Assembly: GCA_025355955.1 (NCBI GenBank)
Contig: JANXYP010000038.1
Location: 1-32,615, forward strand
Source of the DNA: Chloroflexota bacterium
GTDB lineage: Bacteria > Chloroflexota > Chloroflexia > QHBQ01
Length of the DNA stretch: 32,615 bases
Direction of reading: 5' to 3'
Part shown: piece by piece, positions 4,855-28,106 of the stretch
How positions within the stretch are numbered: the first letter of the stretch is position 1
Layout of the letters: each line of letters starts with the position of its first letter
The notes under the pieces: model-generated
Database searches by the model: none
What the model was told of the DNA's origin: nothing
Seen by the model: only the letters and a program-made list of their open reading frames with translations
Program-made: the position numbers and the translations under genes

Positions 4855-4953
4855 TTATACCAATTAGCCGTGGTGCCGATATAATTTCTGTAGTGGCGAA
4901 CCGTTGTTCGCCCTGGCCCAATTTATACTATCTGCTCGGCTAATTGGTATTAC
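4855..4953. mobile_element. MITE-like element, TIR TACCAATTAGCCG
   Basis: TTA-TACCAATTAGCCG ... CGGCTAATTGGTA-TTA; internal hairpin GGCGAACCGTTGTTCGCC; a related element is at 27937-28106. Confidence 0.75.
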
Positions 4954-12710: not shown

Positions 12711-12896
12711 TATCGGTATATCCTCTCTGCCATGCTGGGGAGTAGTATTGCGCTGGGCAATCATAACACATCGATGGGTTTGGGGCAAGGGTGCGTATCA
12801 CTTGCTTGCATACTCAACCAGGGCGAACCGTTGTTCGCCTATAATGCACGCTTGCTCGGCAAGCATGAGATGCGAAAACTGTATAAAGGAACAACC

Positions 12897-16915: not shown

Positions 16916-17293
16916 CTATAATCGCACAGTAAAGAAGAGGAAGAGGAAAACCATTGAGGTGCTCATTGCCAGTCCGATACCAGCGAGCCACGTGGTCAGG
17001 GGAGGGTTAGGTGAGCGGGTATATAGAAACAGGGCTGTAATACTTTCCGACACACCAAAAATGACAGCAGGCGTGCCAATTAGCAAGGCATAAAGGACGA
17101 CTAGGCCAGACGCATCGCCCAGTCTTGCCCCATTAGCCTGATAATATGCGCCATATATCCCAACAAGGAAGGCGACTGTCGAGCTGATCAGAGCGGCAAC
17201 TGCCCACATTAGCGGAACATTATCGCTTGGCACAGAGGGTGGCATCTGGTCAATGGAGGGCTGTGGATGGTCAGACATTAGCGCACCTTTCAC
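16916..17293 (-). CDS. small membrane protein
   Basis: Three hydrophobic segments; overlaps the upstream ATPase gene end by 4 bp (ATGA-type). Confidence 0.7.
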   Translation of the reverse strand: MKGALMSDHPQPSIDQMPPSVPSDNVPLMWAVAALISSTVAFLVGIYGAYYQANGARLGDASGLVVLYALLIGTPAVIFGVSESITALFLYTRSPNPPLTTWLAGIGLAMSTSMVFLFLFFTVRL

Positions 17294-18162
17294 GCCTGAT
17301 TTAGCTCACGATACTGCTGGGTGAGGTTGTTGACCACGTAGTTTACCACCTCGGCATCAATGCGGCGGCGGTCGAGACGGGGGGCGACATCGAAGCAGAG
17401 CGAACAGATGTTGACGATGCTGCGGGGAACGCCGCCAGAGTGACGGGTGATTAGCTCGATGGCCTCATCGGTGAACAGTTCGACGCTGTTGGTTAGCCCA
17501 GCGGTATGCAGTCGATGGTTGATTAGCTCCTTGACCTCGGCAGTGGTTTGCAGAGGCTCCAGGTTCCAGGTAAGGCGCACTCGACTACCCAGATTGCGCT
17601 TCTTTGCAACCTTCTCCTGCAACTCAAGCTGGCCGAAGACCACTATCTGGAGGATGCGATGGTCATCTAGCGAGTAATTCAAGAAGATGCGGAGACGTTC
17701 GAGCGCGTCATAAGAGAGGCACTGGCCCTCGTCAACCAGCAGCAACGGCACCTTGCCCTCGCGGGCAGCCTTCTGCAAGAACAGGATGAACTCATTGGAT
17801 AGTTCGCTGCGGGTGCTGCCCAGTGGCTTCTGGCCGAAGGCGCGTAGCATTTCGCGGGTGAACTCGGCATCGGTTGGCTGAGTGGGGTCGAGTACCTCGG
17901 CGACGACTAGATTGCTGAAAAGGTCGTTGCCCATTACCCGGCGGCGCAACACGCTCAAGAGGCTACTTTTGCCCAAGCCGATGTCGCCATAGACGATGGT
18001 GAGACCGCGCCCCCAGAGGATATGCTGGGTGAGTAGGTTCAGCACTTCCTTGTACTGGTGGCCCTGGAAGAAGAAGCGGGCAGAGTCTTCGGGGTTGAAT
18101 GGGTCTTCCTTGAGCGAGGGGTGGAAGTAGGCCATTGCCAGCTTCTGATATTGACTTACCAT
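17290..18162 (-). CDS. ExeA/TniB-like AAA ATPase
   Basis: Walker A GDIGLGKSS, Walker B LLLVDEGQ, sensor GQLELQEKV, HSGGVPRSIVNIC. Confidence 0.85.
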   Translation of the reverse strand: MVSQYQKLAMAYFHPSLKEDPFNPEDSARFFFQGHQYKEVLNLLTQHILWGRGLTIVYGDIGLGKSSLLSVLRRRVMGNDLFSNLVVAEVLDPTQPTDAEFTREMLRAFGQKPLGSTRSELSNEFILFLQKAAREGKVPLLLVDEGQCLSYDALERLRIFLNYSLDDHRILQIVVFGQLELQEKVAKKRNLGSRVRLTWNLEPLQTTAEVKELINHRLHTAGLTNSVELFTDEAIELITRHSGGVPRSIVNICSLCFDVAPRLDRRRIDAEVVNYVVNNLTQQYRELNQA

Positions 18163-18508: not shown

Positions 18509-18850
18509 ATGAGGACCATGGCGATCGGAAACGGCAGAGTAACAAACTATACAAGTGGTGAGGCGCTGGCGATGCTGGCGGATTTGGGCTACATTACCAC
18601 GCCACGGGTGATCCGAAACATCGAGCAGGAGCTAGGGCTGCCGATAAGCCGCGACCCTCAACATCAGCGGGTGTATACGCCGAGCGATGTAGAGCAGTTG
18701 GCGGCTATCCTGGCGCTGCAAGAGGCGGGGCTGCGACTGACTACCATCCACCGCATCCTGATTGAGCGTGACGTGGATGTGATCAGCTTCCACCGCGACC
18801 GGCTTCGGCACGCGCTCAGTATCCTGGAAGAGTTGAAAGTTACAAGTTGA
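18509..18850 (+). CDS. MerR-like HTH regulator
   Basis: TSGEALAMLADLGYITTPRVIRNIEQELGLPISRDPQHQRVYTPSDVEQLAAILALQEAGLRLTTIHRIL; GGGGAGGGGAG 8 nt before ATG 18509. Confidence 0.75.
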   Translation: MRTMAIGNGRVTNYTSGEALAMLADLGYITTPRVIRNIEQELGLPISRDPQHQRVYTPSDVEQLAAILALQEAGLRLTTIHRILIERDVDVISFHRDRLRHALSILEELKVTS

Positions 18851-18966
18851 AAGTTGAAAGTGAAAGCATAAAGTACGCGGTGGGGTATGGCTGGAGCCAG
18901 CTATCTGCCTGGCAAGCCCTTCCAACCACTTGCAACTTTCAACTTTCAACTCCCCGGAGGGGAACC

Positions 18967-19896
18967 GTGATTAACTGGCTACAGGAGAAGGTGACGCAAA
19001 CGCGGCCAGCGCCGATGGTGATGGCCGCGGGCGAATCCAAGCAGGCGAAAGGGGTAAACAAGGGTGCGGCTGCCGACGCTGCGCCGACCCCTGCGCCGAA
19101 GCTGACCAAGCAGAAGCGGGCCGCCGATGGTGGCCCGCGGATCATCGCGATCGCCAATCAGAAGGGTGGCGTGGGCAAGACGACCACCACCGTCAATCTC
19201 GGCGCGGAACTGGCGACCATGGGGCGGCGAGTGCTGATTATTGACCTCGATCCACAGGCGGCAGCCACCTACTCGCTGGGCCACGACCCGGAGGGCATTA
19301 CCAAAACCATCTACAACGCCTTCGTCAAGAAGGACGCGACCATGCGCGAGGTAATCCTGCCAACCAGCGTGGAGAACCTGTCCATTGCCCCAGCCAACCT
19401 GGATCTGGCGGGCGCGGAACTCGACCTAATCCACAATTATACCCGTGAGCGGGTGCTGAAGGAAGCGGTGGCTACGGTAGCCGCAGATTACGATTATATC
19501 CTGATTGACTGTCCTCCCAGCCTGACCCTGCTGACGGTCAACGCCTTCGTTGCCAGCACCGAGGTGCTAATCCCGCTGCAAACCCATTTGCTTAGTCTGC
19601 GCGGGGTGACACGGCTGCTGGAGACGATCAAAGAGATCAGCGCGCTGAACCCCACTCTGAAGGTGACTGGCATCCTGCCCACGATGTACGATGGGCGTAG
19701 CAACTTGAACCGCGAGATCCTGGCAACGATTAGCCAGGTGTACAGCGGGCGGGTGTTCAGGAGCGTGATTCGCTATGGAGTGGCCGCCGCCGAAGCGCCG
19801 GGGCAGGGCGTGCCGGTGCGCCTGTATGCGCGAAGCAGCCCGGTGGCGAAGTGCTACGAGGCGCTGGCGAAGGAGATTATTGCCGATGAACGCTGA
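18967..19896 (+). CDS. parA: ParA/Soj-family partition ATPase
   Basis: IIAIANQKGGVGKTTTTVNLGAELATMGRRVLIIDLDPQAAATYSLG, DYILIDCPPSLTLLTVNAFVASTEVLIPLQ; GTG start 18967 with GGAGG at 18956-18960. Confidence 0.93.
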   Translation: MINWLQEKVTQTRPAPMVMAAGESKQAKGVNKGAAADAAPTPAPKLTKQKRAADGGPRIIAIANQKGGVGKTTTTVNLGAELATMGRRVLIIDLDPQAAATYSLGHDPEGITKTIYNAFVKKDATMREVILPTSVENLSIAPANLDLAGAELDLIHNYTRERVLKEAVATVAADYDYILIDCPPSLTLLTVNAFVASTEVLIPLQTHLLSLRGVTRLLETIKEISALNPTLKVTGILPTMYDGRSNLNREILATISQVYSGRVFRSVIRYGVAAAEAPGQGVPVRLYARSSPVAKCYEALAKEIIADER

Positions 19897-20033: not shown

Positions 20034-20037
20034 ATGA
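19960..20037 (+). CDS. candidate 25-aa coupled mini-ORF 2 (MSADVYAHSNPSRRAGSYSRGVNRR)
   Basis: AAGGAG upstream; TGA 20035-20037 overlaps the parB ATG 20034-20036. Confidence 0.35.
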   Translation: MSADVYAHSNPSRRAGSYSRGVNRR

Positions 20038-21014
20038 GCGTTGAACGAGGCAGCAAGCCGCGCAAGAGTCTGGTGCCGCAGAGTACCTGGCAGCGGTTGG
20101 CCGAGGCCAGCCCCGACGAGGGTACTCGTCCATTGGCGGGGGCCAAGCTGATCGAGACAGGTCGGGTGGTGGCGGATCCTAGCCAGCCGCGCAAATACTT
20201 CGAGGCGGGCGGGATGGCCGAGCTGATCGCCAGCGTGCGCGAGCGGGGCATTTTGCAGCCGATCACAGTGCAGCGGCAGGAGGATGGCAACTTCCGCATC
20301 ATCACCGGCGAACGACGCTGGCGGGCGGCCAGCGCATTGGAGATGCCCTACGTGCCAGCATTGGTGGTAGAGTTGACCGACAACGAGGCGCGGCTGGACC
20401 GCGTGGTGGAGAACCGCCAGCGGCGCGGGCTGCGCGATTACGAGATGGCAGTGGCGCTGCGCGAGATCAAGCGCGACCTGGCTCACGACAATCCAGGGAT
20501 GAGCAGCAACGAGCTTGACGAACTAACCGGCAAGCAACTGGGGATGAGCGGGCGCAGTGTGCGGAACTTCCTGGCAATGATGAATGTGCCGCAGGAGATA
20601 CGTGACGAACTAGGTGAGGACTTCAGCGAACTGGCGACCCGCGGCATATCGCTGCTGCGTGATCACCCTGAGAAGCGCGATGCGCTGGTTAAGGCGATCA
20701 AGAAGCATGACCTGAGCGGGCGGCAGACGGTGGAATTGGCGCGGCTGTTGAACGACAAACCGGGGATGAGCATGAACGACATGATCGCGCTAGTGCAGAA
20801 CGAGCCATCGCGCCGCGCCGCCTTCGGTGGGCGCAAATCATACATCGAACTGACGACCCGCATCAGCCAGGCGAATCGGCTGGTGGAGAACGGCGCGCTG
20901 GCGGCGGCATCAGACCAGGAGCGCGACGACCTGCTGCGCCTGCTGCAACCGCTGCTCGATTTGCAGCAGCAGATTGTGGCGGGCGATGCGCGGCTCGGAC
21001 GGCGGAAGAAGTGA
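20034..21014 (+). CDS. parB: ParB-family partition/DNA-binding protein
   Basis: QPRKYFEAGGMAELIASVRERGILQPITVQRQEDGNFRIITGERRWRAASALEMPYVPALVVE, HTH LTGKQLGMSGRSVRNFLAMMNVPQEI. Confidence 0.9.
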   Translation: MSVERGSKPRKSLVPQSTWQRLAEASPDEGTRPLAGAKLIETGRVVADPSQPRKYFEAGGMAELIASVRERGILQPITVQRQEDGNFRIITGERRWRAASALEMPYVPALVVELTDNEARLDRVVENRQRRGLRDYEMAVALREIKRDLAHDNPGMSSNELDELTGKQLGMSGRSVRNFLAMMNVPQEIRDELGEDFSELATRGISLLRDHPEKRDALVKAIKKHDLSGRQTVELARLLNDKPGMSMNDMIALVQNEPSRRAAFGGRKSYIELTTRISQANRLVENGALAAASDQERDDLLRLLQPLLDLQQQIVAGDARLGRRKK

Positions 21015-21037: not shown

Positions 21038-21211
21038 CAACCGGGGTCATGATGACCCTGGTTGGAGCAGCGTATTCATGATGAATGCTGAGGGTAAGCA
21101 ACCGTACTCGTAACAAGTACGGTTCAATCGCAAATCAGGTAAGGTTAGCAACGGGTGTCATGACGACACTGGTTGAATGGGGAGCAACCGGTGTCATGAC
21201 GACACTGGTTG
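21038..21211. repeat. array of five short palindromes with covarying stems
   Basis: 21038-21064 CAACCGGGGTC-ATGAT-GACCCTGGTTG; 21068-21090 CAGCgtATTC-ATGAT-GAATGCTG; 21100-21124 AACCGTACT-CGTAACA-AGTACGGTT; 21149-21175 CAACGGGTGTC-ATGAC-GACACTGGTTG; 21185-21211 CAACCGGTGTC-ATGAC-GACACTGGTTG. Confidence 0.85.
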
Positions 21212-21241: not shown

Positions 21242-22120
21242 ATGGACGGCGACGCGGGCAAGCTAGAGGTGATTACCCCACTGACCGAGAAGGTGGTTGA
21301 CTTCTATGGCGATCAGATACCTGTGGCTCAAGCAAATGGTGATGAGCTGTATGTGCCGTTGCGCCCATTGGTGGAGGCGATTGGGCTTGATCGGGGTAGC
21401 CAGCAGAAGCGCATCCAGCGTGATAAGGTGATGGCGAAGCGTTCACGGTTGGTGGCAATGCGCGGGGTAGATGGTCGGGTGCGCGATCAGCTTTGTCTGC
21501 CACTGGATCTGCTGCCTGGCTGGCTGTTCGGCATAGATACCAGCAGGGTGCGGCCTGAGATTCAGGATAAACTCGACCTCTATCGAGAGCAGGCTTTTCG
21601 CGTGCTGTGGGGTGCGTTCAAGGGCGAGATTATGCCCTATGCTGCCGCCCCAGCGACCAGCGGGTTGACGACGGCGCAGCAGACGTTGGAGATGATCACC
21701 GCAATGCAGCATCTCGCCCAGCAGCAGGTGGAGATGGAGCGGCGGGTGACGAACGTGGAGGGCCGCCAGGAGACGATGGCGAACTATATGCGCGGCTTCA
21801 TCGAGGATACGCGCAAGCGGCTGCAAGATTCGGATCAGCGCGTAAGCGGGCTGGAACTGCGTCTGGATGCGGGCGCGACTATCAGCGAGGCGCAGGCAGC
21901 GGAGATTGCCCTGGCGGTGAAGAACGTGGGCAACGCGCTGGAGCAGCACGGCAGCAGCGGCGGCTACGCCAAGGTTTATTCAGAGATGTACCGCCGCTAC
22001 CGGGTTAGCTCATATAAGAACCTGTCGCGGGCGAAGTATGATGAGGTACTGGCCTGGTTGAGCCGTTGGTATGATGAGATTAGCGGCGCGAAGGCAGAGC
22101 CAAACGAGGCAACCCAATGA
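21242..22120 (+). CDS. phage antirepressor-like protein (P22_AR_N-type N-terminus)
   Basis: VDFYGDQIPVAQANGDELYVPLRPLVEAIGLDRGSQQKRIQRDKV...LPLDLLPGWLFGIDTSRVRPEIQDKLDLYREQAFRVLWGAF. Confidence 0.8.
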   Translation: MDGDAGKLEVITPLTEKVVDFYGDQIPVAQANGDELYVPLRPLVEAIGLDRGSQQKRIQRDKVMAKRSRLVAMRGVDGRVRDQLCLPLDLLPGWLFGIDTSRVRPEIQDKLDLYREQAFRVLWGAFKGEIMPYAAAPATSGLTTAQQTLEMITAMQHLAQQQVEMERRVTNVEGRQETMANYMRGFIEDTRKRLQDSDQRVSGLELRLDAGATISEAQAAEIALAVKNVGNALEQHGSSGGYAKVYSEMYRRYRVSSYKNLSRAKYDEVLAWLSRWYDEISGAKAEPNEATQ

Positions 22121-25183: not shown

Positions 25184-25322
25184 TGGCAGGAATCTAGTTT
25201 TATGTTTGTAGGGACGAACCATTGCCCCCTTGCGGGTGGCAAATAGTAGGAAATTGGTCATGATACATATAGCATTATGGGAAAAGTTGTGATACAATAG
25301 CAGGGCGAATAACAGTTCGCCC

Positions 25323-27936: not shown

Positions 27937-28106
27937 TTATACCAATTAGCCAAGGAGATGCTATAGCTCTGTAGGGGCGAACCGTTGTTCGCCCTGCCTC
28001 AATCTATAGCGGCTTCAGCGTGCGGTACAGGTTGGGGTCGAACACTCTGGCGAACCGTTGTTCGCCCTGCCTCAATCTATAGCGGCACCATCGCTAATTG
28101 GTATTA
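27937..28106. mobile_element. MITE-like element, TIR TACCAATTAGC, with internal 38-bp direct duplication
   Basis: TTA-TACCAATTAGC ... GCTAATTGGTA-TTA; GGCGAACCGTTGTTCGCCCTGCCTCAATCTATAGCGGC at 27976-28013 and 28049-28086. Confidence 0.8.

Follow-up and report, generated by a model that had tools for sequence, protein, structure and literature searches.

Palindromes upstream of P22_AR_N-family genes in Chloroflexota: candidate operators of the regulators encoded downstream

Antirepressor-like proteins of the P22_AR_N/Bro-N type are common in phages and bacteria. Among paralogous autoregulators whose operators have diversified, such as antitoxins and phage CI/Cro, each protein reads its own palindrome, with less cross-talk; these paralog-specific palindromes are similar to those reported here, but the proteins differ in fold and in genomic setting. 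For P22_AR_N proteins, neither such operators nor a defined DNA target were found described in the open-access literature that was searched. P22 Ant and phi11 Gp07 are antirepressors of the P22_AR_N/Bro-N type, and P22-type Ant shares the N-terminal domain family (PF10547; PHROG 524) of the protein studied here. For phage antirepressors, the literature searched yielded no account of a gene-specific palindromic operator belonging to them, whereas the Chloroflexota genes are multi-copy and often lie beside parAB. DNA binding has been proposed for Bro proteins (PMC5944126).

The nearest functional analogue appears to be KfrA/KorA of broad-host-range plasmids. Regulators of this type in RA3, RK2 and R751 display strong autoregulation via operators at their own promoter, with KfrA of RK2 binding a 24-nt imperfect palindrome and KfrA of RA3 having a five-repeat operator (PMC7783346). 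The likeness resides in a DNA-binding N-domain (putative in our case) associated with an alpha-helical tail, and in a gene located near parA/parB homologues (PMC7783346). KfrA, however, carries its own type of helix-turn-helix N-domain in place of P22_AR_N, and the RA3 operators are short repeats, whereas the Chloroflexota system involves many paralogs per genome.

The locus described here lies in a window (the whole stretch of DNA that was analysed) of 32,615 nucleotides belonging to a 5.15 Mb draft genome of the class Chloroflexia, in 420 contigs, which was itself searched. An array of palindromes occupies the gap between a parB-like gene and a P22_AR_N gene; the corresponding features are as follows.

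18847..19896, + strand: parA-like gene, upstream (Pfam PF13614, E=4e-59)
20034..21014, + strand: parB-like gene, upstream, not the proposed binder (Pfam PF02195, E=4e-23)
21038-21064: palindrome 1, CAACCGGGGTCATGATGACCCTGGTTG, core CATGATG, centre 21051
21068-21090: palindrome 2, weak; core ATTCATGATGAAT perfect over 21074-21086, centre 21080
21100-21124: palindrome 3, AACCGTACTCGTAACAAGTACGGTT, TGT-N-ACA-like core, centre 21112
21149-21175: palindrome 4, CAACGGGTGTCATGACGACACTGGTTG, centre 21162
21185-21211: palindrome 5, CAACCGGTGTCATGACGACACTGGTTG, closest to the gene start, centre 21198
21242..22120, + strand: P22_AR_N-family regulator of 292 aa, proposed binder (Pfam PF10547, E=1.8e-27; PHROG anti-repressor Ant, E=5e-33)
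21392..21421, + strand: codons 51-60, putative recognition helix (predicted helix; residues 51, 55 and 56 track palindrome similarity)
21464..21493, + strand: codons 75-84, putative wing (predicted beta-hairpin; residues 76, 79 and 81 track palindrome similarity)

The five features reported by the first-pass annotation are all present at 21038-21211, with the spacings of 29, 32, 50 and 36 nt that it gave between centres, and their inner arms do vary while staying complementary. Its common layout of CAACC..GGTTG arms, mostly around ATGAT or ATGAC centres, needs correction for palindrome 3, which ends in GGTTC and has the centre CGTAACA instead of ATGAY, and for palindrome 4, which has CAACG on the left. 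Palindromes 1, 3, 4 and 5 are strong dyads of 25-27 bp. Palindrome 2 is perfect over 13 bp only; its outer CAGC/GCTG arms exist as reported, but 2 nt out of register. Outer arms are common to palindromes 1, 4 and 5, while the inner arms of palindromes 2 and 3 are different. When the window was searched with a degenerate pattern derived from the array, 6 matches were obtained (3 sites on both strands) versus 0 in 100 shuffles.

The product of the downstream gene belongs to the P22_AR_N family, the PF10547 profile matching it with 96 bits for a cut-off of 30.7. This N-terminal domain is accompanied by a predicted long helix (residues 144-208) and, in the C-terminal part, by an ORF6C match that is sub-threshold (20.3 bits, cut-off 22); a KfrA-type N-terminal domain is absent from the Pfam scan, which gave only P22_AR_N and the weak ORF6C. 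In AlphaFold2 models with mean pLDDT of 80 and 88, residues 51-60 form one helix and residues 75-84 one beta-hairpin, a modelled arrangement resembling that of winged-helix DNA readers. Foldseek searches with the N-domain returned weak matches to DNA-binding folds, the best of which (E=0.05) is too weak for fold assignment; Dachshund, DdrC and an APSES-DNA complex (E 0.14-0.25) are among these matches and represent a hint only. A sequence search of the PDB found nothing.

When compared to its own genome, the window protein gave 14 matches; 9 of these cover most of the P22_AR_N domain with a score above its cut-off, to which one broken copy is added. The genome contains about a dozen further copies or pieces of the gene. 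In all 11 cases where the 5' side of a copy could be read, a near-perfect palindrome of its own lies upstream (for instance AAGGGTGTGCCATTATGGCACACCCTT for copy C31, GGGGCAGTATGGTCATAATGACCATACTGCCCC for C113, TAGCATCGTGGGTATAATACCCACGATGCTA for C412 and GCTTTCCGTTGGTGTTACACCAACGGAAAGC for C227) and, at most of these loci, the palindrome closest to the gene stops 11-17 nt short of the start codon. The dyad centre is common to the copies (CAT-N-ATG, CATATG or TGT-N-ACA); the arms differ, many being unrelated in sequence. Pattern searches of the whole genome detected CAACC-N17-GGTTG palindromes with the core at P22_AR_N genes only, and AAGGG-type palindromes at three P22_AR_N genes and as one orphan, AAGGGTGCTGCATTATACAGCACCCTT (C102:4532-4558, L222), with no P22_AR_N gene behind it. 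In the 686 kb that were scanned, core-type palindromes are nearly confined to genes of the P22_AR_N family, with one orphan by pattern, instead of being scattered in many copies between unrelated genes, which speaks against a REP or dispersed palindrome family.

Three of the copies have particular configurations. In the first, at C337:238-718 (L060), the whole P22_AR_N domain is lost and a palindrome still occurs directly upstream. The second (C384, L059) is frameshifted and flanked on each side by apparent helicase gene fragments that have similar motifs. The third (C390:2946-3801, L056) is a solitary palindrome and P22_AR_N gene, with a guaA-like gene on one side and a purD-like gene on the other; it has a fair promoter (TTGATT-17-CATAAT), in which the palindrome centre serves as the -10.

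Relatives were then pooled from class and phylum genome searches and from GTDB and IMG/VR contigs, giving 108 distinct genes with upstream DNA, and the test was made on the 48 closest genes for which sufficient sequence was available upstream. A symmetric palindrome scoring at least 8 occurs within 200 nt upstream of 23 of these 48 genes versus 14 of 334 control ORFs, all taken from one genome (Fisher p=1.5e-14); for a score of at least 10, the counts are 17/48 and 1/334. In 12 of the 23 genes, the palindrome centre is located 25-34 nt before the start. A genome of the phylum that lies outside the class has a palindrome type centred on GTGTTACAC, and the complete 375 kb plasmid of Ca. Chlorohelix allophototropha presents the order palindrome, P22_AR_N gene, parA, parB. 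Among the more distant relatives, roughly half showed no clear palindrome, and it is absent from a tandem-duplicated clade of the EERWVEFYDD type. In genome G053, genes of this last type occur without palindromes as tandem arrays of 2-3 (C30, C51 and C165; L064, L065 and L067), with near-identical C-terminal parts and diverse N-domains, which looks like N-domain diversification as far as sequence comparison can tell.

The position of the array next to parB raises the question of a partition site, as had initially been proposed. Plasmid centromeres are often repeat arrays adjoining parB, and a ParB-like gene is located directly upstream in the window as well as in C227, C113 and C412, which would fit palindromes that serve this neighbouring ParB as its centromere (parS). 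Searches with ParA/ParB profiles, however, placed parAB upstream, divergent, downstream or nowhere depending on the copy, while the palindrome stays with the P22_AR_N gene: it is there in C390 and C413, which have no parAB within 3-4 kb upstream, and it remains at the antirepressor-like gene where parAB is divergent (L104, L134) or downstream (L136; plasmid L024). That the palindrome stays with this gene whatever the position of parAB indicates that it is not a ParB site; moreover, most loci have a single palindrome rather than an array, and palindrome similarity tracks the N-domain of the antirepressor. The centromere was therefore rejected on the basis of solitary copies and changed gene order, and we regard it as very unlikely; a role of the P22_AR_N regulator in partition is nonetheless possible.

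Complementary changes in the arms had been taken as a sign of selection for either a hairpin or a dyad, and a repeat RNA had been suggested. In a hand-picked, purely descriptive list of 37 core-type palindromes from 29 loci, 441 of 468 pairs (94%) are complementary, including 69 of the 74 innermost ones, and an A adjoins the axis in all 37. These palindromes could represent 5' leader RNA hairpins, with a conserved AUNAU loop and a covarying stem, that control translation or bind the protein as RNA: a loop that is conserved while its stem covaries is typical of RNA, many of the palindromes end just before the ribosome-binding site, and a stable fold is predicted for the array of the window (z=-5.7), although this z-score only restates the palindromes. 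An RNA loop, on the other hand, has no need for complementary innermost pairs, yet, with no hand-picking, 23 of 40 palindromes at P22_AR_N genes have both central pairs complementary, versus 44 of 393 in the genome background (p=8e-11). Mismatches in the 37 palindromes include 7 G:T and 13 A:C, hence no wobble excess, the stem sequence tracks the N-domain of the protein, and no Rfam family reached its gathering score, the only matches being sub-threshold ones to snoRNA. Symmetry through the centre and the lack of G-U excess thus favour, at the sequence level, a DNA dyad over an RNA hairpin, and an RNA role gains no support. A structured cis-regulatory RNA was set aside on these grounds and is in our view unlikely; of the two possibilities initially raised, it is the dyad that stands.

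The third proposal of the first-pass annotation, an operator array for the antirepressor, is well supported by the finding that the palindromes follow the gene family across genome and phylum and by the way in which their sequence tracks the N-terminal domain. Over 23 genes, similarity of the outer half-sites correlates with identity of the P22_AR_N domain (Spearman rho 0.34, permutation p=4e-4), whereas palindrome similarity shows no such relation to identity of the C-domain (rho 0.01, p=0.40). The N-domain correlation amounts to 0.37 given the C-domain (p=2e-4), and when close pairs were left out the values were 0.24 for the N-domain and -0.10 for the C-domain; the sample is one of 23-24 related, phylogenetically non-independent genes. 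Column by column, the association averages z=3.3 over residues 51-60 and z=3.5 over residues 75-84, versus 0.5-1.9 elsewhere, with residues 81, 51, 79, 76, 55, 67 and 56 as the top columns. Since the N-domain adjoins the palindrome, physical co-inheritance could account for part of the N-domain correlation.

Such co-inheritance would account for the entire link if the sites were used by another DNA-binding protein, either an Arc/Mnt-like ribbon-helix-helix repressor or a global host regulator. Arc and Mnt play this part for ant in phage P22; an Arc-family gene adjoins a relative on an Enterobacter plasmid, and in two Chloroflexia loci parA and the P22_AR_N gene are separated by a small gene of a different type. 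No extra regulator is common to the loci, however, and the C390 copy is solitary among purine-biosynthesis genes; a global regulator would require the same site everywhere, yet the arms differ at every gene, and the association is strongest in two short elements instead of extending over the whole N-domain. Another binder seems extremely unlikely to us. A reading of palindrome plus gene as a mobile cassette was also considered.

As for an autoregulatory operator, what is found is a dyad at the gene start, rare elsewhere, that co-varies with the N-terminal domain of the product. From the observed placement, symmetry, gene family, recurrence and correlation with the N-domain, we infer that the palindromes are quite probably operators of the P22_AR_N-family autoregulator encoded downstream, which would bind them as a dimer, repress its gene and be linked to partition. 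Each half-site would combine an inner element common to the sites (A-T-G or A-C-A, reading away from the axis) with 8-10 gene-specific outer bases, the latter being read by the helix 51-60 and the beta-hairpin 75-84 of the N-domain, while the long predicted helix is taken as the coiled coil of the dimer. Occupancy near the start codon would result in repression of the gene and of any co-transcribed parAB, so that the protein would act as an autoregulator, often of a plasmid-type partition cassette. In silico analyses of promoters indicate that a CATAAT-like centre makes a passable -10, with a -35 at 17 nt in some loci (C113, C390); a convincing -35 exists at some loci only, and the promoter-like excess is largely owed to the palindrome centre itself. 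In the window, neither a consensus promoter nor a convincing -35 was found upstream of the 21242-22120 gene.

The five-fold array of the window may provide graded or cooperative control, possibly by sister paralogs too. Besides the genes with no clear palindrome and the loci with no convincing -35, a counter-point to the operator model is that arms vary within this one array (palindromes 2 and 3 versus 1, 4 and 5), which implies that one protein must tolerate them or that there are other binders. The core ATTCATGATGAAT of palindrome 2 resembles the site GTATTCATAATGAATAC of C413, whose array includes GTGCCATTATGGCAC, similar to the sites of C31 and C390; these resemblances suggest that arrays may combine sites for several paralogs.

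Overall, the genome seems, from its sequence, to hold a set of regulator-and-site pairs that often adjoin plasmid-type partition genes. More speculatively, and with rather less than even confidence, P22_AR_N may be a diversifiable DNA-reading module whose paralogs, ca. a dozen per genome in Chloroflexota, form near-orthogonal regulator-operator pairs under a specificity code involving approximately residues 51, 55, 56, 76, 79 and 81, with mixed arrays such as that of the window connecting several paralogs, and through them several partition cassettes, in a single network of cross-regulation or incompatibility. Gene-adjacent palindromes would provide dozens of proteins with candidate sites in one step, together with a testable specificity code, and would link phage-type regulators to plasmid-type partition cassettes, for which the complete plasmid of the enriched phototroph offers a test case. 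The P22_AR_N family might also be a supply of orthogonal repressors for engineering.

Finally, two other features were detected in the window. An AAA protein resembling a phage DNA-transposition protein (PHROG 296, E=3e-17) is encoded at 17290-18162 on the - strand and adjoins the parA cassette. Inverted repeats of the form GGGCGAAC-N4-GTTCGCCC, found at 4894-4913, 12821-12840, 25303-25322, 27975-27994 and 28048-28067, have 7 window matches versus 0.28 expected and also occur in many other contigs of the genome; judging from this dispersal, they may constitute a REP-like family.
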